From a virus, in the IMG/VR virus record IMGVR_UViG_3300042867_000552, positions 1 to 20,909 of that record: a stretch of DNA of 20,909 nucleotides; one strand, written 5' to 3'. Below the pieces are notes generated by a model. The model saw only the letters and a list, made by a program, of their open reading frames with translations, had not been told where the DNA came from and made no database searches. The translations under genes and the position numbers were made by a program. Of the stretch, positions 1 through 13,053 are shown one piece after another; within the stretch, counting starts at the first letter, position 1, and each line of letters opens with the position of its first letter.

Positions 1-538
1 TTTCGGACTCAAATAGAACCGCTGCGGCAGGTCTCCAGTCTCCAAGATATCCGATAAGAAAGACTCTTCTGCGTCTTTGTGCGACTCCAAAATGTTGAGC
101 GTCAAGAATTCTGTAGGCGAACCCATACCCGAGTTCCCCCAACGCCCCGAGGAGGGAACCAAAATCTTTTCCTCCGTTACTTGACAAGACCCCGGGGACA
201 TTTTCCCAAACAATCCACTGGGGTTTTGCCTTGTCAGCAATGCGACAGAATTCAAGGGCCAAGTTGCCACGAGAGTCTTCCATTCCTTTTCTGAGACCTG
301 CGACTGAGAATGATTGGCAGGGAGTTCCTCCAACAAGAACATCGATAGTTGTTTCATTAAATATAGGGTTTGAGTGAATTAAAGTCATGTCTCCAAGATT
401 TGGGGTTTGTGGGTAATGGTGTTGTAGCACAGCCGATGGGAAGGGTTCTATTTCTGAAAACCATTGTGCCTCCCACCCTAATGGATGCCAAGCCATTGTA
501 GCGGCTTCTATCCCCGAACATACTGACCCGTACCTCAT
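1..538 (-). CDS. C5-cytosine DNA methyltransferase, 3' end beyond the left edge
   Basis: Transfers a methyl group from S-adenosylmethionine to carbon 5 of cytosine in phage DNA, probably to evade host restriction. The 179 residues in the window hold motif I (VCSGIEAA, residues 6-13), the catalytic motif IV loop GGTPCQSFSVAG (residues 70-81, nucleophile Cys74), the ENV motif (residues 112-114) and the QRRRRVF motif (residues 154-160). The target-recognition domain and motifs IX and X lie outside the window, so sequence specificity cannot be judged. The ATG overlaps the stop of the upstream MazG-like gene as ATGA, which fixes the start and implies coupled translation. It is the last visible gene of the replication operon. 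No partner restriction enzyme is visible, so an orphan phage methyltransferase is most likely. Family assignment is very secure. Confidence 0.95.
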   Translation of the reverse strand, partial: MRYGSVCSGIEAATMAWHPLGWEAQWFSEIEPFPSAVLQHHYPQTPNLGDMTLIHSNPIFNETTIDVLVGGTPCQSFSVAGLRKGMEDSRGNLALEFCRIADKAKPQWIVWENVPGVLSSNGGKDFGSLLGALGELGYGFAYRILDAQHFGVAQRRRRVFLIGYLGDWRPAAAVLFESE

Positions 539-771
539 TTGTTTTTTATTTTTTCGATTGCACTTTTTAAATACACAGCCATGTCAAGGCACTCCTCGTA
601 GGCTTCCTGTAGCCACATGATATGGTCATAGTCAGTTCGGTCAACTGTTGTTCCGTACTGCAAGAAACCTTTCTTTTCTCTTTTTTTAAGGTCCTCAATT
701 AACTTGGTAAGTATCTTGGAGTCTTTAAGTTCGTAGTGAGGTTCCACGTTGTGGGTACTATTCTGCTCCAT
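535..771 (-). CDS. Small MazG-like all-alpha phage protein (putative NTP pyrophosphohydrolase family)
   Basis: A 78-residue, probably all-helical protein. Residues 28-70 contain a phrase common in small phage proteins: a charged helix, a KYG-like turn (QYGTT, residues 38-42), a D-x-T-D stretch, then a second helix with QEAYEECLDMAVYL (residues 55-68). The EExxD pattern (E59, E60, D63) resembles the metal-binding helix of MazG/dUTPase-type enzymes, so nucleotide clean-up is a fair guess, but the full catalytic set is not evident. I chose the internal ATG at 771 because the upstream in-frame ATG at 834 would overlap the preceding gene by 77 bases; the chosen start overlaps by only 14. Its TGA stop overlaps the methyltransferase ATG. 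Existence as a gene is likely; function is tentative. Confidence 0.7.
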   Translation of the reverse strand: MEQNSTHNVEPHYELKDSKILTKLIEDLKKREKKGFLQYGTTVDRTDYDHIMWLQEAYEECLDMAVYLKSAIEKIKNK

Positions 772-994
772 AAGTCTCGTAGTGTTTACGGATAATGTTC
801 TCAACGAACTTTTGCTTTGTTTCACTCCAATCACTTACATCCTCTTCATCTTTTGAAACACTGGCAGAAACCCCGTAGGTTGTTCCGGATGCGCTTACTA
901 CTTTCAATAAAATATATTCATATTTCATATCTAAAGTAATCTCTCCGTTAAAGTAATACTCTGTCTTGTGTGGCTTTTCGATTGTGATTTCCAT
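758..994 (-). CDS. Unknown 78-residue protein
   Basis: I do not recognise this protein. It is small and acidic. The first half has alternating hydrophobic residues, suggesting beta strands (EYILLKVVSASGTTYGVSAS, residues 26-45), and the last 25 residues look helical. It has no signal peptide, membrane segment or obvious catalytic motif. It lies in the replication operon, 7 bases downstream of the DnaA domain IV-like gene, and overlaps the MazG-like gene at its 3' end. The tight spacing and matching strand support it being a real gene. Adjacent replication genes suggest an early accessory role, but that is inference from position only. Confidence 0.65.
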   Translation of the reverse strand: MEITIEKPHKTEYYFNGEITLDMKYEYILLKVVSASGTTYGVSASVSKDEEDVSDWSETKQKFVENIIRKHYETYGAE

Positions 995-1001
995 TGTGTT
1001 T

Positions 1002-1511
1002 TTAGTGTTGAATGTTTAATTTAAAATATAACTCTCTGTATGCTTGTCTAGGTTGTGGGTATCCAAGCTCCTCCATCCTCTCAACAAAGTATTGGATAAC
1101 CATCCTATCTTTCCAAGATGTCTCCATCGTATTTTCAAACATCTTAATGCCGTGTAAAACAGTCCCATGTTTTTTATTTCCAAACTCATTACCAATACCC
1201 TCTAATGTTACAGGTAGTGTTTTATACATTATCCAATACACCAATTGCCTATAAAGGATATTTTCTCTCTTCCTGTTCTTTTCCCCTGTAGCGTTATAAA
1301 CTTTTACGGCAATATCTTTTACGAGGTCAATGTAGTTCCTCATGTTAGTGCCGATAGCAACATTGTGAATCACATGGCTAAATTTATCAGCCTCTTCTTT
1401 TAGGTGAGGGACATAAAGGATTAAATCACTAATGAATCTTTCCTTACGATCATTTGGCACGTACTCTAGGATGTCTCCAAAATGAATCTTTTTTTCCGCT
1501 TGAACTTCCAT
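1002..1511 (-). CDS. Stand-alone DnaA domain IV-like DNA-binding protein
   Basis: Probably binds DnaA-box-like DNA. Residues 58-150 follow the plan of the C-terminal DNA-binding domain of bacterial DnaA: a long helix (YIDLVKDIAVKVYNATG), a basic stretch with a helix (REN...LVYWIMYKTLP), then IGNEFGNKKHGTVLHGIKMF (residues 106-125). The last part matches the DnaA signature that reads GRDHTTVLHA in Escherichia coli, including the His-x-Thr-Val-Leu-His core (H115, T117-H120). The DnaA ATPase domain is absent: no Walker A or B occurs in its 169 residues. The first 55 residues are unrecognised. It lies between an unknown gene and two small genes in the operon of the primase-helicase and initiator, so it may recruit the replisome to the phage origin, compete for host DnaA boxes, or act as a repressor. 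The fold call is good; the role is inferred. Confidence 0.8.
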   Translation of the reverse strand: MEVQAEKKIHFGDILEYVPNDRKERFISDLILYVPHLKEEADKFSHVIHNVAIGTNMRNYIDLVKDIAVKVYNATGEKNRKRENILYRQLVYWIMYKTLPVTLEGIGNEFGNKKHGTVLHGIKMFENTMETSWKDRMVIQYFVERMEELGYPQPRQAYRELYFKLNIQH

Positions 1512-1525
1512 TTTTGTTTTTGTTA

Positions 1526-1945
1526 TTATTTGAGGTTATTAAAAATTTCTTGAACTTGTTCTAGTGTGTGTCGTTGAATAAAGTCCCAGTAAACGAACTT
1601 GTACAGATTTTGAAAATATTTGTTCTTGTAACTTTGAGAGTTGACCGGCTTGTCGATGCCAAGTTCTTTACAAGTCCTCTTACTCGCTTTAGTTTTAATT
1701 TCATCACTTACTTCTTTATTGATAATGTTATTGTTTCGCAAATATCTAACATTCTTTTCACAAAATCCAAATAAAACTTCAACTATTTCAACATATTTTT
1801 TATCAACACAGATATAAACAGCCTCAATGTTTTCGTAAAAGTCTTGTTTTGAACCTGTTAACTCCCCATCCTTCAGTTTAGTAATTGCAACTTGTCGAAG
1901 GCCATATTGAAAAGTGGGGTCAGAATGGTATGTCTTCGTCTTCAT
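1526..1945 (-). CDS. Unknown 139-residue replication-module protein
   Basis: Not recognised. It is a basic, Asn/Lys-rich soluble protein. Residues 20-65 are probably mixed helix and strand (YENIEAVYICVDKKYVEIVE) and the rest is helical, ending in a short amphipathic helix. Two cysteines near the middle (FCEKN, KRTCKE) do not form a visible zinc site. The start at 1945 overlaps the end of the primase-helicase gene by 26 bases in another frame, and the stop lies 14 bases before the DnaA-like gene, so it is embedded in the replication operon. An alternative start further in is possible but less well spaced. A helicase loader or other replisome accessory role is possible from position alone. Confidence 0.7.
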   Translation of the reverse strand: MKTKTYHSDPTFQYGLRQVAITKLKDGELTGSKQDFYENIEAVYICVDKKYVEIVEVLFGFCEKNVRYLRNNNIINKEVSDEIKTKASKRTCKELGIDKPVNSQSYKNKYFQNLYKFVYWDFIQRHTLEQVQEIFNNLK

Positions 1946-3665
1946 ATTCGTGTTGTCTTGTTTCGTACTCGTCTAATAATATTCCCTTACTATCATCTCC
2001 AATCTCTGAAAATCTTTTTGTCTTCACGTCATAAACAAAAGGAACTTCCCCAACTCGACCAATGAAGGACCAACGTATTTTCTGAATGTTGATGAGGGTT
2101 TGACCAGACACATAGTCTCTGTAAGCAACGAACCCATTGTCGCACTTGTTAAAGAAGTGAGCAGACCCTGCTATGTCGTAAAGTGTTGGCATAACATACA
2201 CTCCATTCTCCTTCCTGATCTTTGTAGGGTGTGCAATAACAAACACATGGACTCCGTATCTATCCTTGAATCGTTTAACCTTGGTGAGAGCCTCTGAGAT
2301 GTATTGAGTCTCACTCATGCCCTTCGGAACTTGGTGTTCAACATAGTTCCAAGGATCTATCACAAGGCAGTTGATTCCGCTTCTCTTTACAAGTTCTGCG
2401 GCTTTGTCTAGGATGCCGTCAATTGTTACATCCATCTCATCAATCTTCATGAAGTAGAAGAACTCTTCAACAAAGTCTCTTGCCTTATCAACTTCCTCTT
2501 GACTCATCTTTGCGGTAGGCACAAAAGAGAAGAATGGCTTCCCAATAAATATTTCAGCAAGTTCAGAAAAAAGTATCTCTGTGGGTTGCTTTTCTGGGGA
2601 AAACATTGCTATCTTCCACGAATGTTTCGCAGACAATCTGACAAGTAAATTGTTCAGAAAAGTTGACTTTCCTGCGTTGGGTGTTCCTGTGATAATAGTG
2701 AACTCTGAGCCTCGAAACGAGATATGCTCATCAAACTGATTAAAACCTGCTTTCAACCCATGAGGAAACCCGTTAAGATATATGTCCGTTATTTTTTCCT
2801 TTACGTCATTTACCTTCTCAATGCCTTCTATTGGTATTTGGTAGGCTTCGGCTACAACCTTCTGAAGAAGCTCTACTCCGTAATTAACTAGAATTTCATT
2901 AGCGTCCTTGCATCCATCAGGTATATTAACATACCAAATCTTTTCTCTTCCCAGTCTTCGGGTTAACTCCTCACGAAGAGATAAACCTGCGGAGTCATTA
3001 TCTGTAAAAATGATTACCTTATCCTTGTCGGCAAATGCGTCAATGCAGTTGTCTAAATATTTTAGGTTCTGATTTCCTTTCGTTGCCCCGTTAGGAACGC
3101 TTACGACAGGGTAAATTTGAGCTTCCTCCAAAGAGAGGGTGTCCATTTCACCTTCAACGATTACACACCAATCATAGCCCTCTATGGAGTTCAGGTTATA
3201 GAGTATCAACTCAGCATCCTTCACCATACGAAAGTTCTTTGCCGCATCTCTGTACTTGATGTTAACCAAGTCACCTCCTCGGAAGTAATTAAAACATATG
3301 GCGTTTCTGTTCTCTCCAGCTTGTGGGAAAAAACATTCCTCCTCAGTAACTTTAAGTTTCAACAAAGTGTTGTTAGAGATGCCCCTCTTCTCGAACCAAG
3401 AGAGGACCTTGTCGCTCACCTTCTGAAGTTTTGATACAGGAACAAAGTATTCAACCTTTCGGTCCGACTTGTTCACGCTCTTTCCCATGAAGGATTCACA
3501 GTTTGGGTAGTGGCACTTGTACACTCCTAACTCGACATTTACAGAAAGACTCTTGTCCTTCTTGTTGCTTCTCGTGTCTTTGCAGAACGGACAGTTTACT
3601 TTTTGTTGTGCCGAGGTATCCTTGCAGACAATTCCAAGGGCAGATAATTTTTGGTAGTTGCTCAT
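1920..3665 (-). CDS. Primase-helicase, T7 gp4/Twinkle type
   Basis: Unwinds the replication fork and probably synthesises primers. The 581-residue protein has a zinc-finger region (C25-x2-C28, then C51, H52, C56), a TOPRIM primase core with VIVEGEMD (residues 168-175, E171) and FTDNDSAG (residues 220-227, D222, D224), and a RecA-like hexameric helicase. Helicase motifs are Walker A GTPNAGKST (327-335, K333), Walker B LVIDPWN (434-440, D437) and the sensor-like VFVIAHP (474-480), followed by a typical DIAGSAHFFNKCDN stretch (497-510). The acidic C-terminus ends in EDEDIPF, very like the tip of bacterial SSB and functionally comparable to the acidic, Phe-ended tail of T7 gp4. The ATG overlaps the initiator's TGA as ATGA. 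Function is secure; whether the primase is active cannot be judged by eye. Confidence 0.95.
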   Translation of the reverse strand: MSNYQKLSALGIVCKDTSAQQKVNCPFCKDTRSNKKDKSLSVNVELGVYKCHYPNCESFMGKSVNKSDRKVEYFVPVSKLQKVSDKVLSWFEKRGISNNTLLKLKVTEEECFFPQAGENRNAICFNYFRGGDLVNIKYRDAAKNFRMVKDAELILYNLNSIEGYDWCVIVEGEMDTLSLEEAQIYPVVSVPNGATKGNQNLKYLDNCIDAFADKDKVIIFTDNDSAGLSLREELTRRLGREKIWYVNIPDGCKDANEILVNYGVELLQKVVAEAYQIPIEGIEKVNDVKEKITDIYLNGFPHGLKAGFNQFDEHISFRGSEFTIITGTPNAGKSTFLNNLLVRLSAKHSWKIAMFSPEKQPTEILFSELAEIFIGKPFFSFVPTAKMSQEEVDKARDFVEEFFYFMKIDEMDVTIDGILDKAAELVKRSGINCLVIDPWNYVEHQVPKGMSETQYISEALTKVKRFKDRYGVHVFVIAHPTKIRKENGVYVMPTLYDIAGSAHFFNKCDNGFVAYRDYVSGQTLINIQKIRWSFIGRVGEVPFVYDVKTKRFSEIGDDSKGILLDEYETRQHEYEDEDIPF

Positions 3666-4396
3666 ATTTTATTGAAAAATCCTTTTTCAGCTTTGTTTAT
3701 TTCCTCTTGAGTTTTGAAGTGTGTGCTTCCGAATACATCTCTAACTTTAATTTTCTCTTCTTGAATTTTATATCCATCCTTAAACCAAACGTGCATCTTG
3801 AGTCTCCAATTCCTTACTGGAGATCCACTCTTGTCATGCCAGTTCCCATCGGTGTAATAATTAAACGCTTTGATGGCGGCATCCTCTCTAAAACCTTTAT
3901 CTCTAAAAAACACCTTCACTTCTTCCAAGGTAGGCGGCACAAAACTATTTTTCGGTTTTTTTGCCAATGTAGTAGTGTTAGTATTTGTATTAATATTAGT
4001 ATTTGTATTAGTGTGTCTTTGTATAGGCATACTCTGACCGAGGTCGGCAAATCCCGATGTCGGCTTTTCCCTAATGTCGGATAACTCTAATGTCGGCTCT
4101 TCGTATACAATATGATTCCACCCCTTGAATACTTTTGTCTGTGGGTCAATAACTTTCACGCTAAGTATATAACCCTTCTGCTGAAGTTGTTTAAACACAC
4201 GATCTATAGCACCCTTAGACTCATTTGTTTTTTCGGGAAGACTTTTTTTATAAAGCACCCAATCAGTGGGCAGGCTTAATAGATAAACAAGTAATCCCTT
4301 CTCTTCAATTGTTATGGAGCAATCTTGTAACAACTTGTTGCTTAACATGGTGAAGGCTTTCTCAGATTTAGCTCTAACGATTTGTCCTGTGTTCAT
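3662..4396 (-). CDS. Replication initiator/replisome organiser with winged helix and C-terminal NW motif
   Basis: Likely binds the phage origin and recruits the primase-helicase encoded directly downstream. Residues 25-95 form a helix-turn-helix/winged-helix region (EEKGLLVYLLSLP; KGAIDRVFKQLQQKGYI) typical of phage initiator proteins. Residues 152-207 contain FVPPTLEEVKVFF...AFNYYTDGNWHD...PVRNWRLKMHVW, a DnaD-like C-terminal phrase common in such proteins. Between them lies a flexible Asn-Thr repeat (residues 129-143) encoded by AT-rich direct repeats. First gene after the promoter at 4501-4530, with about 100 bases of structured leader. Its TGA overlaps the helicase ATG, suggesting coupled and balanced synthesis. 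Initiator identity is inferred from domain layout and context; a transcriptional regulator is a weaker alternative. Confidence 0.82.
   Translation of the reverse strand: MNTGQIVRAKSEKAFTMLSNKLLQDCSITIEEKGLLVYLLSLPTDWVLYKKSLPEKTNESKGAIDRVFKQLQQKGYILSVKVIDPQTKVFKGWNHIVYEEPTLELSDIREKPTSGFADLGQSMPIQRHTNTNTNINTNTNTTTLAKKPKNSFVPPTLEEVKVFFRDKGFREDAAIKAFNYYTDGNWHDKSGSPVRNWRLKMHVWFKDGYKIQEEKIKVRDVFGSTHFKTQEEINKAEKGFFNKI
3971..4016. repeat. AT-rich direct repeats in the initiator gene (candidate iterons/origin)
   Basis: Two perfect 15-base copies of TTAGTATTTGTATTA (3978-3992 and 3996-4010) are spaced 18 bases apart, flanked by partial copies (GTAGTAGTGTTAG on one side, ATTAGTGTG on the other). They encode the Asn-Thr linker of the initiator. 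Lambda places its origin repeats inside gene O in the same way, so an origin here is plausible. The repeats could instead be only the by-product of a simple linker sequence. Confidence 0.45.
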
Positions 4397-4500: not shown

Positions 4501-4530
4501 CAAAGATAATAAAATTACGCTGCTCTCCAA
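4501..4530 (-). promoter_or_regulatory. Bacteroidota-type promoter of the replication operon
   Basis: On the minus strand TTG (4530-4528, within GTTTGG) is followed after 19 bases by TATCTTTG (4508-4501). This matches the Bacteroidota consensus of TTTG or TTG, 19-22 bases, TAnnTTTG. The -33 element lies in the 3' end of the small gene at 4515-4730. Transcription would start near 4494 and run into the initiator, helicase and downstream genes. Confidence 0.8.
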
Positions 4531-4730
4531 ACACGAACTCCACCATCCGTTGATCGGGCAGTTAGTTCGTATTTCTTTTTCTTCTTTTGGTAGAAAAGTT
4601 TAGCAAGGTACTTTGATGTTTCTCCAGGAACAAAGAAAGAGTCTCCTACTTCCATCTCCGGTAAAACATATTCGGTTTTTCTACCTCTCCCACTTGTGCT
4701 TGGGATTGGTATATTTTTATCTACGTTCAT
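4515..4730 (-). CDS. Small DUF7303-like phage protein
   Basis: A basic 71-residue protein that begins MNVDKNIPIPSTSGRGRK, continues with LPEMEVGDSFFVP (residues 23-35), then has a lysine-rich stretch and ends in GGVRVWRAA. This plan (short N-terminal peptide, 'MxVGDSF' beta turn, basic helix, 'VRVWR' strand near the C-terminus) is shared by many small early phage proteins grouped as DUF7303-like; their function is not known to me. The basic charge fits nucleic-acid binding. It is the first minus-strand gene next to the divergent spacer, and the promoter for the next gene lies in its 3' end, so it may be transcribed both alone and with the operon. Gene reality is likely; function unknown. Confidence 0.75.
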   Translation of the reverse strand: MNVDKNIPIPSTSGRGRKTEYVLPEMEVGDSFFVPGETSKYLAKLFYQKKKKKYELTARSTDGGVRVWRAA

Positions 4731-4866
4731 TTTTGTTGTGTGTTAATTCTTCGCAAATATACATTATACAAATCAAAATCCTAATAATATTTTATAAACA
4801 ACAATGTTAAAAACTATTTGAAGAACCTTTCAATATAATTTATACATTTGTGAAAATTATATAACA
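4731..4866. promoter_or_regulatory. Divergent AT-rich control region between early minus and plus genes
   Basis: A 136-base spacer without a convincing gene separates the minus-strand replication module from the plus-strand genes. It holds the plus promoter at 4817-4850 and a minus-strand TATATTTG (4761-4754) 23 bases before the ATG at 4730. The latter has no TTG at the usual upstream distance, so it is a weaker candidate. The central part (about 4780-4815) is very AT-rich, could melt easily, and might also serve as a regulator or replication site. Confidence 0.5.
4817..4850 (+). promoter_or_regulatory. Promoter of the SSB-like gene
   Basis: TTTG (4817-4820) and TACATTTG (4843-4850) are separated by 22 bases, fitting the Bacteroidota -33/-7 pattern. 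The -7 element ends 16 bases before the ATG at 4867, so the leader would be only about ten bases, A-rich and without a Shine-Dalgarno sequence. Confidence 0.75.
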
Positions 4867-5205
4867 ATGAACATTAAAGGAAAAATCAAATCGGTAGGCA
4901 GCACCGAACAAAAGAGTGCCAAATTTTCTGTTAGAACATTTGTCCTAGAACTAGAGGGTAAGTACCCGGAGTTAGTAGAGTTCCAATTAGTAAATGACAA
5001 CACACTCCTAATCAACCCATTCTCATCAGGGGACGAAATCGAAGTCGAGTTCAACCTGAAAGGAAGGGAGTACAACGGAAGAGTATACAACTCTCTTCAA
5101 GTTTGGAAAATATCAGGGGAGACAAAACTAAAAAATGAACCCACACCACAAACAGAAACTCCGCAGGGAGAGTCTAAGGAATCCAAAGACGACCTCCCGT
5201 TCTAA
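4867..5205 (+). CDS. SSB-like OB-fold protein, DUF3127 family
   Basis: Probably coats single-stranded DNA during phage replication. The 112 residues match the DUF3127 layout common in Bacteroidota and their phages: an N-terminal beta strand (MNIKGKIKSVG), a middle strand pair (FVLELEGKYPELVEFQLV), a GDEIEVEFNLKGREYNGRVY stretch (residues 55-74) and a closing NSLQVWKI strand (75-82). This is an OB-fold pattern. A 30-residue disordered Pro/Thr/Glu-rich linker leads to the acidic tip ESKDDLPF, which matches the partner-binding tip of bacterial SSB (DDDIPF in Escherichia coli). The primase-helicase on the other strand carries a very similar end. Placed first after a plus-strand promoter and followed by a strong terminator, it is probably an early, independently expressed gene. 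Confidence 0.85.
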   Translation: MNIKGKIKSVGSTEQKSAKFSVRTFVLELEGKYPELVEFQLVNDNTLLINPFSSGDEIEVEFNLKGREYNGRVYNSLQVWKISGETKLKNEPTPQTETPQGESKESKDDLPF

Positions 5206-5214
5206 TATAAAAAC

Positions 5215-5243
5215 AAAGTCCCCCTTATTTAGGGGGATTTTTG
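5215..5243 (+). terminator. Intrinsic terminator after the SSB-like gene
   Basis: TCCCCCT (5219-5225), loop TATTT, AGGGGGA (5231-5237) form a seven-pair, GC-rich stem, extended by a G-T pair and three A-T pairs outside it, and followed by TTTTTG. It lies ten bases after the stop codon. The hairpin runs directly into the next promoter-like element. Confidence 0.85.
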
Positions 5244-5251
5244 TATTTTTG
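5244..5251 (+). promoter_or_regulatory. Promoter -7 element directly after the terminator
   Basis: TATTTTTG matches TAnnTTTG and ends 15 bases before the ATG at 5267, the same geometry as the SSB promoter. No TTG lies at the usual -33 distance because that stretch is the terminator stem, so it may be weak or activator-dependent. Confidence 0.5.
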
Positions 5252-5266
5252 GATAAAATTAACAAT

Positions 5267-5620
5267 ATGTTCTTTAAGTCCAAGAAAAGAAGAGAAGAGG
5301 AAGAGGATGATAAAAAACCTCTTCCAGTGCTTTGCAGTACCGTCTGCGTAGTATGGAACACCGAAGAAGAAATTGAAGGCAACCCTGGTCAAGGGCTATA
5401 CGCTGAATATGTGCCTATAATATTTGATATAACCAAAGTTGCTGCTATACAAGCAGACGTGGAGTTTCGTAACGATGGTTCAGCGTCTATAGGTTCAAGA
5501 ACTTTAGTGTACATTATTGGATCAACAGACCCTTTGATTATTGACGCTCCGTATAAATCGTTTTTAGAATATTTTACACTTTTAAAATCTAACGAGTTTC
5601 ATAACAACGCAAACTACTAA
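5267..5620 (+). CDS. Unknown 117-residue acidic/basic-start phage protein
   Basis: Not assigned to a named family. It begins with a charged tail (MFFKSKKRREEEEDDKK), then has a compact domain with likely beta strands: VPIIFDITKVAAIQADVEF, GSRTLVYIIG and LIIDAPYKSFLEYFTLL. The plan 'FDIxxVxA ... TLVYI ... IDxPYxxFLxxF' recurs in small phage proteins of unknown function. I start it at 5267, 16 bases after a TAnnTTTG element; the longer frame from 5135 would read through the SSB gene and terminator. It is followed after 17 bases by the phosphoesterase gene, probably in the same transcript. Gene reality is likely; role unknown. Confidence 0.7.
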   Translation: MFFKSKKRREEEEDDKKPLPVLCSTVCVVWNTEEEIEGNPGQGLYAEYVPIIFDITKVAAIQADVEFRNDGSASIGSRTLVYIIGSTDPLIIDAPYKSFLEYFTLLKSNEFHNNANY

Positions 5621-10719: not shown

Positions 10720-13053
10720 ATGAGCGAATATACAATCTTGTGGCCAAAGGATGATATTGATCCTAAAAAGAAAGACAACAACTGGTTGTCTCAAATTGGC
10801 CGTGCCATTTTTTATCGTTACGAAAATAACAAAACTTATTTTGGCCGACAAGATATTGCTCGTTTATTTGAGATAAGAAACTACTCTGAAGGAAGACAAA
10901 ATCAACAGAAGTATATTGATATGTGGATTCAGCGAGGGGAAGAAAAGACAAGTCTATCAAGCCCTAACGCACAAGCTCAACGTATTCGTAGAAAAGGTTA
11001 CGCAAATATGAACTTTGAGATTTTCTCAATAGCACCTGAGTTAAAGAGAGTTATTCATTCTGTAATAGGTACTGATAATCAGCGTGTTCAAGTTGATTGT
11101 ATTAACCCGGAGATTAAAAATAAGAAAGCGTTAGATAAGGCAACCCTTTACGTTAAGTCGAAGATGGAGCCTTTAATGAAAGATTTAGGAATGCCGCAAG
11201 TTGGCGAGGGAGAGTTTCTACCTCAGAACCCTGGCGAGTTAGATGTATTCGAAAGTCTTGGTGGGTTTAAACAAAATTTAGAAATTACTTTAGAGAAGTT
11301 AATAGAGTTAGGTTTTACAAATAGTGATTGGGGAAAGATAGAGCGTCAGTTAAAAGATGATGCCATCAACTTCAACTTTATGGTTTGTAAAGACTACACA
11401 GACGCTCATACGGGCATGGCAAAGGTTAAGTATGTAGACGTAACTAAGTTTATTTGTGCTTGGACGGATGACTCTCAAGGAGACAATACCCCATTTGCAG
11501 GACACTTTGAAAAATATAGCATTCCTCAAATTAGAGACTTGCTCATCCAAAATGGATGGACTGAGGAGGATACCGAAAGACAAGTTAACAGAATTGCTAA
11601 GTGGGCGTTTGATTTAACTTATTCAAACGATAGATACGGATGGTCTTGGTATTGTCAAAGAGATACTATCACGGATCGTATGCGTTACGATGATTTCTTT
11701 GTGGACGTTCTTGAGTTCGAATATATTTCGAAGGATACTCAGTTCTACAAAAAGAAAGATCGTGATGGTATTCACACATTCTACTCAGACAAGTTTGGGG
11801 AATATGTAAATACAGATAAGAAGAAAACAGTTATTGTAGACGCTCACGTTATTTACGAGGGGTACTTTATCCCAGGAGCAAACATCACAGTAGGTGGTAA
11901 GCAGAAGAACATGAAGAGAGTGAGCAAGCAAAAGCCTCAAATCTCTTACCGCTTTGAAAGAGTACCGGGAAAGGCTATCACAGAAACAGCCATACCTATT
12001 TACGACTCTCTTCAAATCAATCATTTGAAATTACAAGCAGCAAAATTAGCTGCTGCTCCAAAGGGTATTGCGATTGACATCGGGGCATTAAACATTAATA
12101 GTATTGCAGGTTCGATGTACACCCCATTTGACCTTGTTCAAGTATATTCTCATACGGGTAATTTCTTTTACAGATCCTCTCTATTAGGAGGTAAGGTAAA
12201 TACAAATAAAACCTTTGACGAATTAGAGGGTGGTATAGGTAAACAATTATCCGAATGGATTTTAGCCTACCAACATGACGTGGAAAAATTACTACAGATT
12301 ACAGGAATCACTCCAACTATGGCAGGCTCTCCTGCAAAGGGTGATAAGTTGGTTGGTATTGCCGAGATGGAAGTTGAGGCGACTAACAATGCTCTTTGGC
12401 CACTACAGCAAGCATTAGAGCGTTTAAAGGTTAAGATGGGTCAGAACATTGCTTTGCGTGCTATGACAACAATGCGCTTTGACAGCGAAGTGAAGGACTA
12501 CTATGCGGAAGTATTTGGCAAAACATCAATCGATTACTTATTACCTGCGGCTGACTTTACGCTAGACGAGTTAGGTATATCCCTCAGCAACAAGATATCA
12601 GCGACTCAGAAGTTTAAAATTGCAGAAGCCGCTGAGACCGCATTAAAAGTTGGTCGTAACGGAATGCCTGAGATAGAACTCTCTGACTACACCATGATTC
12701 TTGAAATGTTGGAGAAGGGGCGTTTAAAAGAAGCAACTTGGTACTTGACATACAAGAGCAGTAAGAAACGTCAGTACAACGACCAGATGGCTGCTCAGAA
12801 CCAACAAGCACAGGCTCAATCTCTACAAGAGTTAGAGTTGATGAAGCAGAAAGGTGAGATGGAGTTAATGCAGATGAAGGCTAAGATAGAGGTTGAAAAA
12901 GAGGCAGCCCTCTCTAACATTAGAGTTAAAGAAAAACAAATGATTATTGCCGCTGAAACTCAAGGAACAATTGAGGAGATTAAAGCAGAGGCATACTTAC
13001 AAGAACAGACAGGTGCTGAAATCACAGGTAAGTTCCGTAAACCAAGCGCATAA
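10720..13053 (+). CDS. Portal protein
   Basis: Forms the dodecameric ring at the capsid vertex through which DNA passes. The 777-residue protein starts right after the large terminase and precedes the scaffold-like and capsid genes, the standard position. Residues 100-125 (ELKRVIHSVIGTDNQRVQV) and 410-470 (RFERVPGKAITETAIPIYDSL, then NHLKLQAAKLAAAPKG) have the portal clip/wing and stem pattern, and residues 525-560 (QITGITPTMAGSPAKGD) match the conserved region of Bacteroidota podovirus portals. The last 90 residues (690-765) are a long Gln/Glu/Lys-rich coiled coil, consistent with the barrel that extends into the capsid in podovirus portals. Identification is by context and pattern rather than by a single motif. 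Confidence 0.85.
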   Translation: MSEYTILWPKDDIDPKKKDNNWLSQIGRAIFYRYENNKTYFGRQDIARLFEIRNYSEGRQNQQKYIDMWIQRGEEKTSLSSPNAQAQRIRRKGYANMNFEIFSIAPELKRVIHSVIGTDNQRVQVDCINPEIKNKKALDKATLYVKSKMEPLMKDLGMPQVGEGEFLPQNPGELDVFESLGGFKQNLEITLEKLIELGFTNSDWGKIERQLKDDAINFNFMVCKDYTDAHTGMAKVKYVDVTKFICAWTDDSQGDNTPFAGHFEKYSIPQIRDLLIQNGWTEEDTERQVNRIAKWAFDLTYSNDRYGWSWYCQRDTITDRMRYDDFFVDVLEFEYISKDTQFYKKKDRDGIHTFYSDKFGEYVNTDKKKTVIVDAHVIYEGYFIPGANITVGGKQKNMKRVSKQKPQISYRFERVPGKAITETAIPIYDSLQINHLKLQAAKLAAAPKGIAIDIGALNINSIAGSMYTPFDLVQVYSHTGNFFYRSSLLGGKVNTNKTFDELEGGIGKQLSEWILAYQHDVEKLLQITGITPTMAGSPAKGDKLVGIAEMEVEATNNALWPLQQALERLKVKMGQNIALRAMTTMRFDSEVKDYYAEVFGKTSIDYLLPAADFTLDELGISLSNKISATQKFKIAEAAETALKVGRNGMPEIELSDYTMILEMLEKGRLKEATWYLTYKSSKKRQYNDQMAAQNQQAQAQSLQELELMKQKGEMELMQMKAKIEVEKEAALSNIRVKEKQMIIAAETQGTIEEIKAEAYLQEQTGAEITGKFRKPSA

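Follow-up and report, generated by a model that had tools for sequence, protein, structure and literature searches.

A stand-alone DnaA domain IV protein with a conserved N-terminal module in the replication operon of a phage

What might a phage do with the DNA-binding domain of DnaA when the rest of the initiator is missing? The question is raised by a gene in 20,909 nucleotides of viral DNA (positions 1 to 20,909 of IMG/VR record IMGVR_UViG_3300042867_000552), called the window here. A preliminary description of this DNA had proposed a phage-encoded DnaA domain IV without the ATPase, which would mark the phage origin, mask host DnaA boxes or repress transcription. The gene, DnaA-IV in the following, lies on the minus strand, with its ATG at 1511 and its stop codon at 1002-1004, and encodes 169 aa. 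The plus-strand reading of 1002-1511 is interrupted by stops and offers no open frame. The gene and its parts are:

1002-1511, minus strand: stand-alone DnaA domain IV protein, 169 aa (PF08299, 6.3e-10; fold Z 12 to 1J1V/3PVP; dN/dS 0.05-0.11)
1344-1511, minus strand: N-terminal module, residues 1-56 (core 9-56), putative partner-binding part (conservation; model confidence about 60)
1062-1343, minus strand: DnaA domain IV, residues 57-150 (VIA-align Z 12.0-12.2, rmsd 1.7-1.8, 90-91 residues)
1266-1292, minus strand: basic loop, residues 74-82 (ATGEKNRKR), Arg80 corresponding to E. coli Arg399 (ungapped alignment to 1J1V)
1119-1205, minus strand: helix-turn-helix, residues 103-131, with the recognition helix region NKKHGTVLHGIK (DSSP on the model, residue table)
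1005-1118, minus strand: C-terminal part, residues 132-169, with the last domain IV helix and an extra helix 153-164 (model)

The product is a genuine DnaA domain IV. The Pfam family Bac_DnaA_C (PF08299) matched residues 77-123 with an E-value of 6.3e-10 and 39.4 bits (curated cut-off 31.5), and it matched all 32 aligned members of the family. The NCBIfam DnaA model TIGR00362 was matched in its domain IV part only (E 2.5e-8, 33.4 bits against a full-length cut-off of 343.9). With a profile made from 76 Bacteroidales DnaA domain IV sequences, the protein scored 37.9 bits and 2000 shuffled copies reached at most 9.6, so the match is not a chance event. In the AlphaFold2 model, DSSP assigned a helix at 57-71, the basic loop, a helix at 82-98, the helix-turn-helix (helices 103-108 and 115-131) and a helix at 133-148. 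Mean pLDDT was 69 with 28 aligned sequences and 79 with 32, after a diverged lineage had been added; it was about 83-94 over residues 61-160. Residues 59-150 are the segment that aligns to solved DnaA domain IV, both to the E. coli domain on DNA (1J1V; Z 12.0, rmsd 1.8 Å, 90 of 94 residues) and to the M. tuberculosis domain on DNA (3PVP; Z 12.2, rmsd 1.7 Å, 91 residues). The top unrelated chain in the structure comparison was sigma region 4, at Z 5.3. Walker A (P-loop) and Walker B patterns were absent from all 32 members. The profile match, the helix-turn-helix and the basic loop, on which the preliminary description had staked its reading, are thus all present, and a domain IV without the ATPase is what the phage encodes. 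The protein is not a bare domain, as domain IV is preceded by a strongly conserved N-terminal module (residues 9-56) and followed by an extra helix.

This N-terminal module is lineage-specific, and residues 10-56 form the most conserved region of the protein, with an entropy of 0.21 bits per column compared to 0.49 in the rest of domain IV. Its core motif (residues 9-56) can be written as FxDILEYVP...K..FI.DL...PH...EA.K...V..G. In the A2 alignment, 20 of the 42 invariant columns fall within residues 11-54, and the module is recognisable in a third lineage as well. Residues 1-56, predicted to be helical at a pLDDT of about 60, gave no significant family match in the Pfam scan. We found no convincing structural neighbour of the module either; the helical model is of low confidence, so this result excludes nothing.

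In IMG/VR, tblastn confirmed 42 relatives, at 74–99% identity (99% for the protein of contig IMGVR_UViG_3300009183_000003), and INPHARED gave one weak domain match. A pattern-based scan of 84,980 cellular species, in which absence is weak evidence, returned no cellular homologue of the whole family, and PADLOC matched nothing for the protein. Searching via the neighbouring primase-helicase, and so independently of the DnaA-IV gene, we found the gene in 46 of 46 informative IMG/VR contigs (those with a close primase-helicase and sufficient downstream DNA), always 373-401 nt downstream of the primase. The single contig with sufficient DNA that lacks it has a primase of only 40% identity. The dN/dS ratio was 0.045-0.114, and the corresponding primases gave 0.012-0.030; the gene is intact and under purifying selection. 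Homology to host DnaA might suggest a decaying, functionless fragment of a host dnaA gene. That explanation is hardly credible given the dN/dS values, the retention in every informative contig and the lineage-wide N-terminal module, and a fragment or pseudogene of a full dnaA is ruled out by synteny and selection. A Bacteroidota host is likely, since phages of Flavobacterium, Cellulophaga, Tenacibaculum and Maribacter supply the closest annotated matches to the primase and, above all, to the terminase. All of 99 Bacteroidota genomes encode a full-length DnaA, and only three have an extra short domain IV ORF (149-216 aa).

The gene had been described as sitting with initiator and primase-helicase genes, and this placement is borne out (phrog_186, 1e-14; phrog_239, 2e-94). 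The leftward operon runs from a DUF7303-like gene through Rep, the primase-helicase, a 139-aa gene, DnaA-IV and two small genes to a cytosine methylase, and only 14 nt separate DnaA-IV from its upstream 139-aa neighbour:

4515-4730, minus strand: first gene of the leftward operon, DUF7303-like, 71 aa (PF23978, 2.5e-6)
3662-4396, minus strand: Rep / DnaD-like replication initiation protein, 244 aa (phrog_186, 1.2e-14; phrog_428, 4.4e-12)
1920-3665, minus strand: primase-helicase (TOPRIM and DnaB_C), 581 aa (phrog_239, 2e-94; DnaB_C, 3.7e-13)
1526-1945, minus strand: co-oriented gene upstream of DnaA-IV, 139 aa (ORF6C, 0.0044, sub-threshold; conserved synteny between primase and DnaA-IV)
758-994, minus strand: co-oriented gene downstream of DnaA-IV, 78 aa (synteny in relatives)
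535-771, minus strand: co-oriented downstream gene, 78 aa in relatives, start possibly at 834 (phrog_11184, 9e-16; synteny)
2-538, minus strand: C5-cytosine DNA methyltransferase, 5' part, truncated by the window end (PF00145, 1.4e-45)
4731-4866, no strand: divergent intergenic region that separates the replication operon from the ssb/structural genes on its right, which run rightward (alignment of 17 sequences)
4867-5205, plus strand: single-strand DNA-binding protein (phrog_4932, 1.8e-25; PF11325, 6e-23)

Several further features of this neighbourhood may be recorded. The 78-aa gene at 758-994 varies between 60 and 95% identity independently of its neighbours and is another exchanged gene of the operon. 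Near the methylase, two relatives encode a protein of 277-285 aa (L071:1403-2236 and L214:7370) with an N-terminal SGGKTSS, which by eye resembles a PP-loop/PAPS-reductase-like ATPase. Between the operons, Bacteroidota-style -7 elements face left (TATATTTG, 4753-4760) and right (TACATTTG, 4845-4852), and the GC skew changes sign close to this region. An AT-rich palindrome at 4833-4862 (ATATAATTTATACA/TGTGAAAATTATAT) overlaps the Bacteroidota-type TAnnTTTG promoter element before ssb; it is conserved in the window's clade and is a candidate operator. The ssb gene and the next ORF (161 aa, 5135-5620) share about 70 bases, which they read in different frames, an arrangement conserved in two relatives (G001 and G003).

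We then compared the DNA-reading residues with those of DnaA, numbering them by the ungapped alignment to 1J1V (offset 319, Arg80 being Arg399). E. coli DnaA contacts bases through positions 399, 423, 432-435 and 438-439 (PMC5043019). Arg80, Arg88 and Thr117 (E. coli Arg399, Arg407 and Thr436) are invariant in the 32 members, and Gln89 (Gln408) is kept in 26 of 28. The basic loop RKRE is shared with most Bacteroidales DnaAs. Where readers of the DnaA box have Asp433-His434-Thr/Ala435, the window carries Lys114-His115-Gly116. Asp433 is present in 70 of 71 Bacteroidales DnaAs, the remaining one having Asn; all 28 aligned members of clades 1 and 2, the window's lineages, have Asn, His, Lys, Thr or Arg instead. 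Position 434 is Tyr in four of these members, and position 435 is Gly or Ala, Ala being the Bacteroidales norm as well. The third lineage (clade 3; primase about 77% and DnaA-IV about 41% identical) retains KDHST. Sub-threshold Phage_pRha matches in this clade (E 0.005-0.02) overlap the DnaA helix-turn-helix and were read as a cross-match. Judging from these replacements, the canonical DnaA box (TTATCCACA) is probably not what the window's lineages read, most clearly so for the Lys, His and Tyr variants; our confidence is only moderate because of the one Bacteroidales DnaA with Asn at position 433. The helix-turn-helix region had the top replacement rate in most pairs. Mean entropy in the base-contact columns was 0.77 compared to 0.49 bits, at P 0.11 against random columns, and faster evolution of these columns is therefore not claimed.

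The same residues bear on the proposal that the protein masks host DnaA boxes (at oriC and in the dnaA promoter) and thereby stops host initiation. A dominant-negative action is conceivable for a domain IV that lacks AAA+, and the RKRE loop suggests descent from a Bacteroidota-type DnaA. However, the reading residues should be retained in a protein that competes for an unchanging host site, and in the window's lineages Asp433 is replaced throughout and His434 has become Tyr in four members. Masking is thus disfavoured and appears improbable, the least likely of the three roles originally put forward, although clade 3 with its KDHST keeps it viable there.

The window contains two DnaA boxes (TTWTNCACA; 3.1 expected) and 11 boxes with one mismatch (6.7 expected, a count reached by 7 of 100 shuffles), without a cluster. 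DnaA boxes are not over-represented in four of five relatives of 58-68 kb; the other, G002, has 12 (8 expected) and eight copies of TTATNCACA (3 expected), but these are scattered. Boxes are neither enriched nor clustered in the window, nor in the large relatives taken together, and a search for iterons around the replication operon gave no recognisable array.

The Rep gene is a swap site. At this one locus (3662-4396 in the window, and in L004, L007, L024, L025, L028, L033 and L043), at least four unrelated N-terminal halves occur among phages with 97–99% identical primases (79% in a sister clade). Among the 17 loci compared, L007 and L024 share a Rep type, as do L004 and L025, but the recognition helices of their DnaA-IV proteins differ. 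Conversely, the window and L007 have unrelated Reps although their DnaA-IV proteins are 94% identical. The distances of the two proteins are uncorrelated (Spearman -0.07 for the 17 loci, -0.12 inside one primase clade). It is usually the winged-helix half of Rep-type proteins that reads the origin. If this applies here, DnaA-IV is unlikely to be the specific reader of the Rep origin, since Rep is swapped independently of it; it may bind another phage site. The idea that the protein marks the phage origin is weakened, as far as a Rep-specific origin is concerned, by this independent swapping and by the lack of a DnaA-box cluster.

Unrelated phages of Bacteroidota and Pelagibacter repeatedly encode a DnaA domain IV on its own, and such proteins are annotated as 'DnaA'. 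Entries named 'DnaA C-terminal' or 'DnaA protein', mostly of 97-211 aa, dominate the viral structure matches. Examples come from uncultured Caudovirales, Cellulophaga phi19:3 (gp13) and phi10:1 (gp34), whose depositor already named PF08299 in a note, Tenacibaculum Gundel_1 (gp36), an Octadecabacter virus, Leeuwenhoekiella Arctus_1, and Pelagibacter Skadi-4 and HTVC203P (gp22). A DnaA protein is also listed in all HTVC010P-related SAR11-phage genomes (PMC6811365) and in Polaribacter phages (PMC4615864). The novelty implied by the preliminary description was thus overstated. Like the window protein, these are short domain IV proteins with small extensions and no AAA+, encoded in replication/recombination modules, and one of them (A0A6J5N8M6) aligns over its full length (TM 0.64, 22% identity). 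In Gundel_1 the gene directly precedes a 'replication protein' and a 'DNA replication protein' and lies beside NinB; in Arctus_1 it directly follows a 'DNA replication protein'; in Skadi-4 and HTVC203P its neighbourhood includes a nuclease and a single-strand annealing protein. Among nine such proteins that we compared, seven keep the Asp433-His434 pair that is replaced in the window's lineages, and the N-terminal module of the window's family is seen in none. Compared to host DnaA of Bacteroidota, the window protein shares the domain IV fold, the RKRE loop and the equivalents of Arg407, Gln408 and Thr436; it differs by the absence of domains I-III and the ATPase, the replaced Asp433, the extra N-terminal module and the C-terminal helix. 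What is new here is the invariant N-terminal module, the recognition helix without Asp433 in the window's lineages and the independence from the swapped Rep.

The recombination genes near some of these homologues (NinB, RecT, single-strand annealing protein), together with the cytosine methylase later in the window's own operon, could hint at a different DNA transaction served by the same DNA-binding module, such as recombination, packaging, or targeting of a phage nucleoid or of methylation. Nothing specific speaks against these, except that the gene lies in the replication operon and not with the terminase; we consider them slightly less probable than masking.

The only DnaA-IV analogues that we found to be experimentally studied are transcription activators. 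In Caulobacter, the stand-alone domain IV homologue GafY (= HdaB) binds promoters of the gene-transfer-agent cluster and interacts with RpoD (PMC9632790, PMC11150451). The DnaA-like N-terminal DNA-binding domain of Rhodobacter GafA is likely essential for activation of the RcGTA promoter (PMC9638019), and both proteins activate gene-transfer-agent promoters (PMC9632790, PMC11150451, PMC9638019, PMC6363796). An earlier proposal, that HdaB targets RIDA and stimulates initiation in the host, was later revised by the GafY authors (PMC9632790). In the literature searched, the coverage of which is incomplete, we found no functional test of a stand-alone DnaA-IV protein in a phage. The window protein has in common with GafY and the GafA domain a stand-alone or separable DnaA-IV-like domain that serves a phage-derived element. 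Unlike it, these are alphaproteobacterial activators with GafZ or a sigma-like partner, and GafA has Glu8 at the position of Arg399 (PMC9638019), where the window protein keeps Arg80.

By analogy, the protein might bind phage promoters through domain IV and touch RNA polymerase or a sigma factor through its N-terminal module, acting as an early-to-late or early autoregulatory switch. Such a role would suit the independence from Rep swapping, and the replication operon does face the ssb/structural operon across a divergent promoter region. However, this region is nearly constant in the window's clade despite differing recognition helices, with no co-variation visible by eye, and the ten neighbouring proteins scanned gave no GafZ/DUF6456 or sigma-like Pfam match. 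The gene is also part of a replication operon, and its counterparts in other phages tend to sit in replication modules. A transcriptional role, suggested earlier in the form of repression, is possible and has an experimental precedent in the activators GafY and GafA; we hold it to be somewhat less likely than a role in replication.

We slightly favour a role in replication over GafY-like control of transcription. The tentative main reading (probability roughly 0.42) is that of a sequence-specific DNA adaptor of the early replication operon, which would recruit a partner to phage DNA early in infection. Domain IV would grip duplex DNA as in DnaA, with Arg80 (Arg399) in the minor groove and helix 115-131 in the major groove, and would read sites on the phage DNA that have departed from the canonical DnaA box. 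A partner that stays the same, most probably either the phage's own primase-helicase or a replication factor of the host, would be recruited by the invariant N-terminal module, and this recruitment would help replication of the phage DNA. In favour of this reading are the domain IV fold and family match, the invariant Arg80, Arg88 and Thr117, the tight operon with Rep and the primase-helicase, and the fixed distance to the primase in the informative contigs. A conserved N-terminal module beside a variable recognition helix is what one would expect if the partner remains constant and the sites change, and the DnaA-C proteins of unrelated phages also belong to replication/recombination modules. 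Against this adaptor stand the absence of a cluster of DnaA boxes or other sites in the window and the five large relatives, the divergence of DnaA-IV that does not track Rep, the presumed origin reader, and the activator function of GafY and GafA. A more specific version, in which a host-type domain IV with a reading head that ignores DnaA boxes and an invariant N-terminal recruiter form a replication helper for interchangeable Rep/origin modules, is rather unlikely.

The protein is conserved, its recognition helix varies and the initiator is swapped independently of it; the family thus constitutes a natural experiment, so that an origin marker, a transcription activator and a blocker of the host origin should be separable by simple binding assays. 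It also calls for caution, as phage genes that bear the name DnaA do not encode initiators in the ATPase sense. Some database records need care for another reason: MT839132 (INPHARED, L095), a phage-labelled contig of 4.5 kb, carries a full-length bacterial-type DnaA (468-aa frame) and is probably bacterial contamination, which is likely for several fecal 'Bacteriophage sp.' records with DnaA as well. In MW202828, a podovirus that shares the terminase lineage (26% identity), two different genes (L105:2034-2336 and 11108-11677) each encode a DnaA domain IV on its own.
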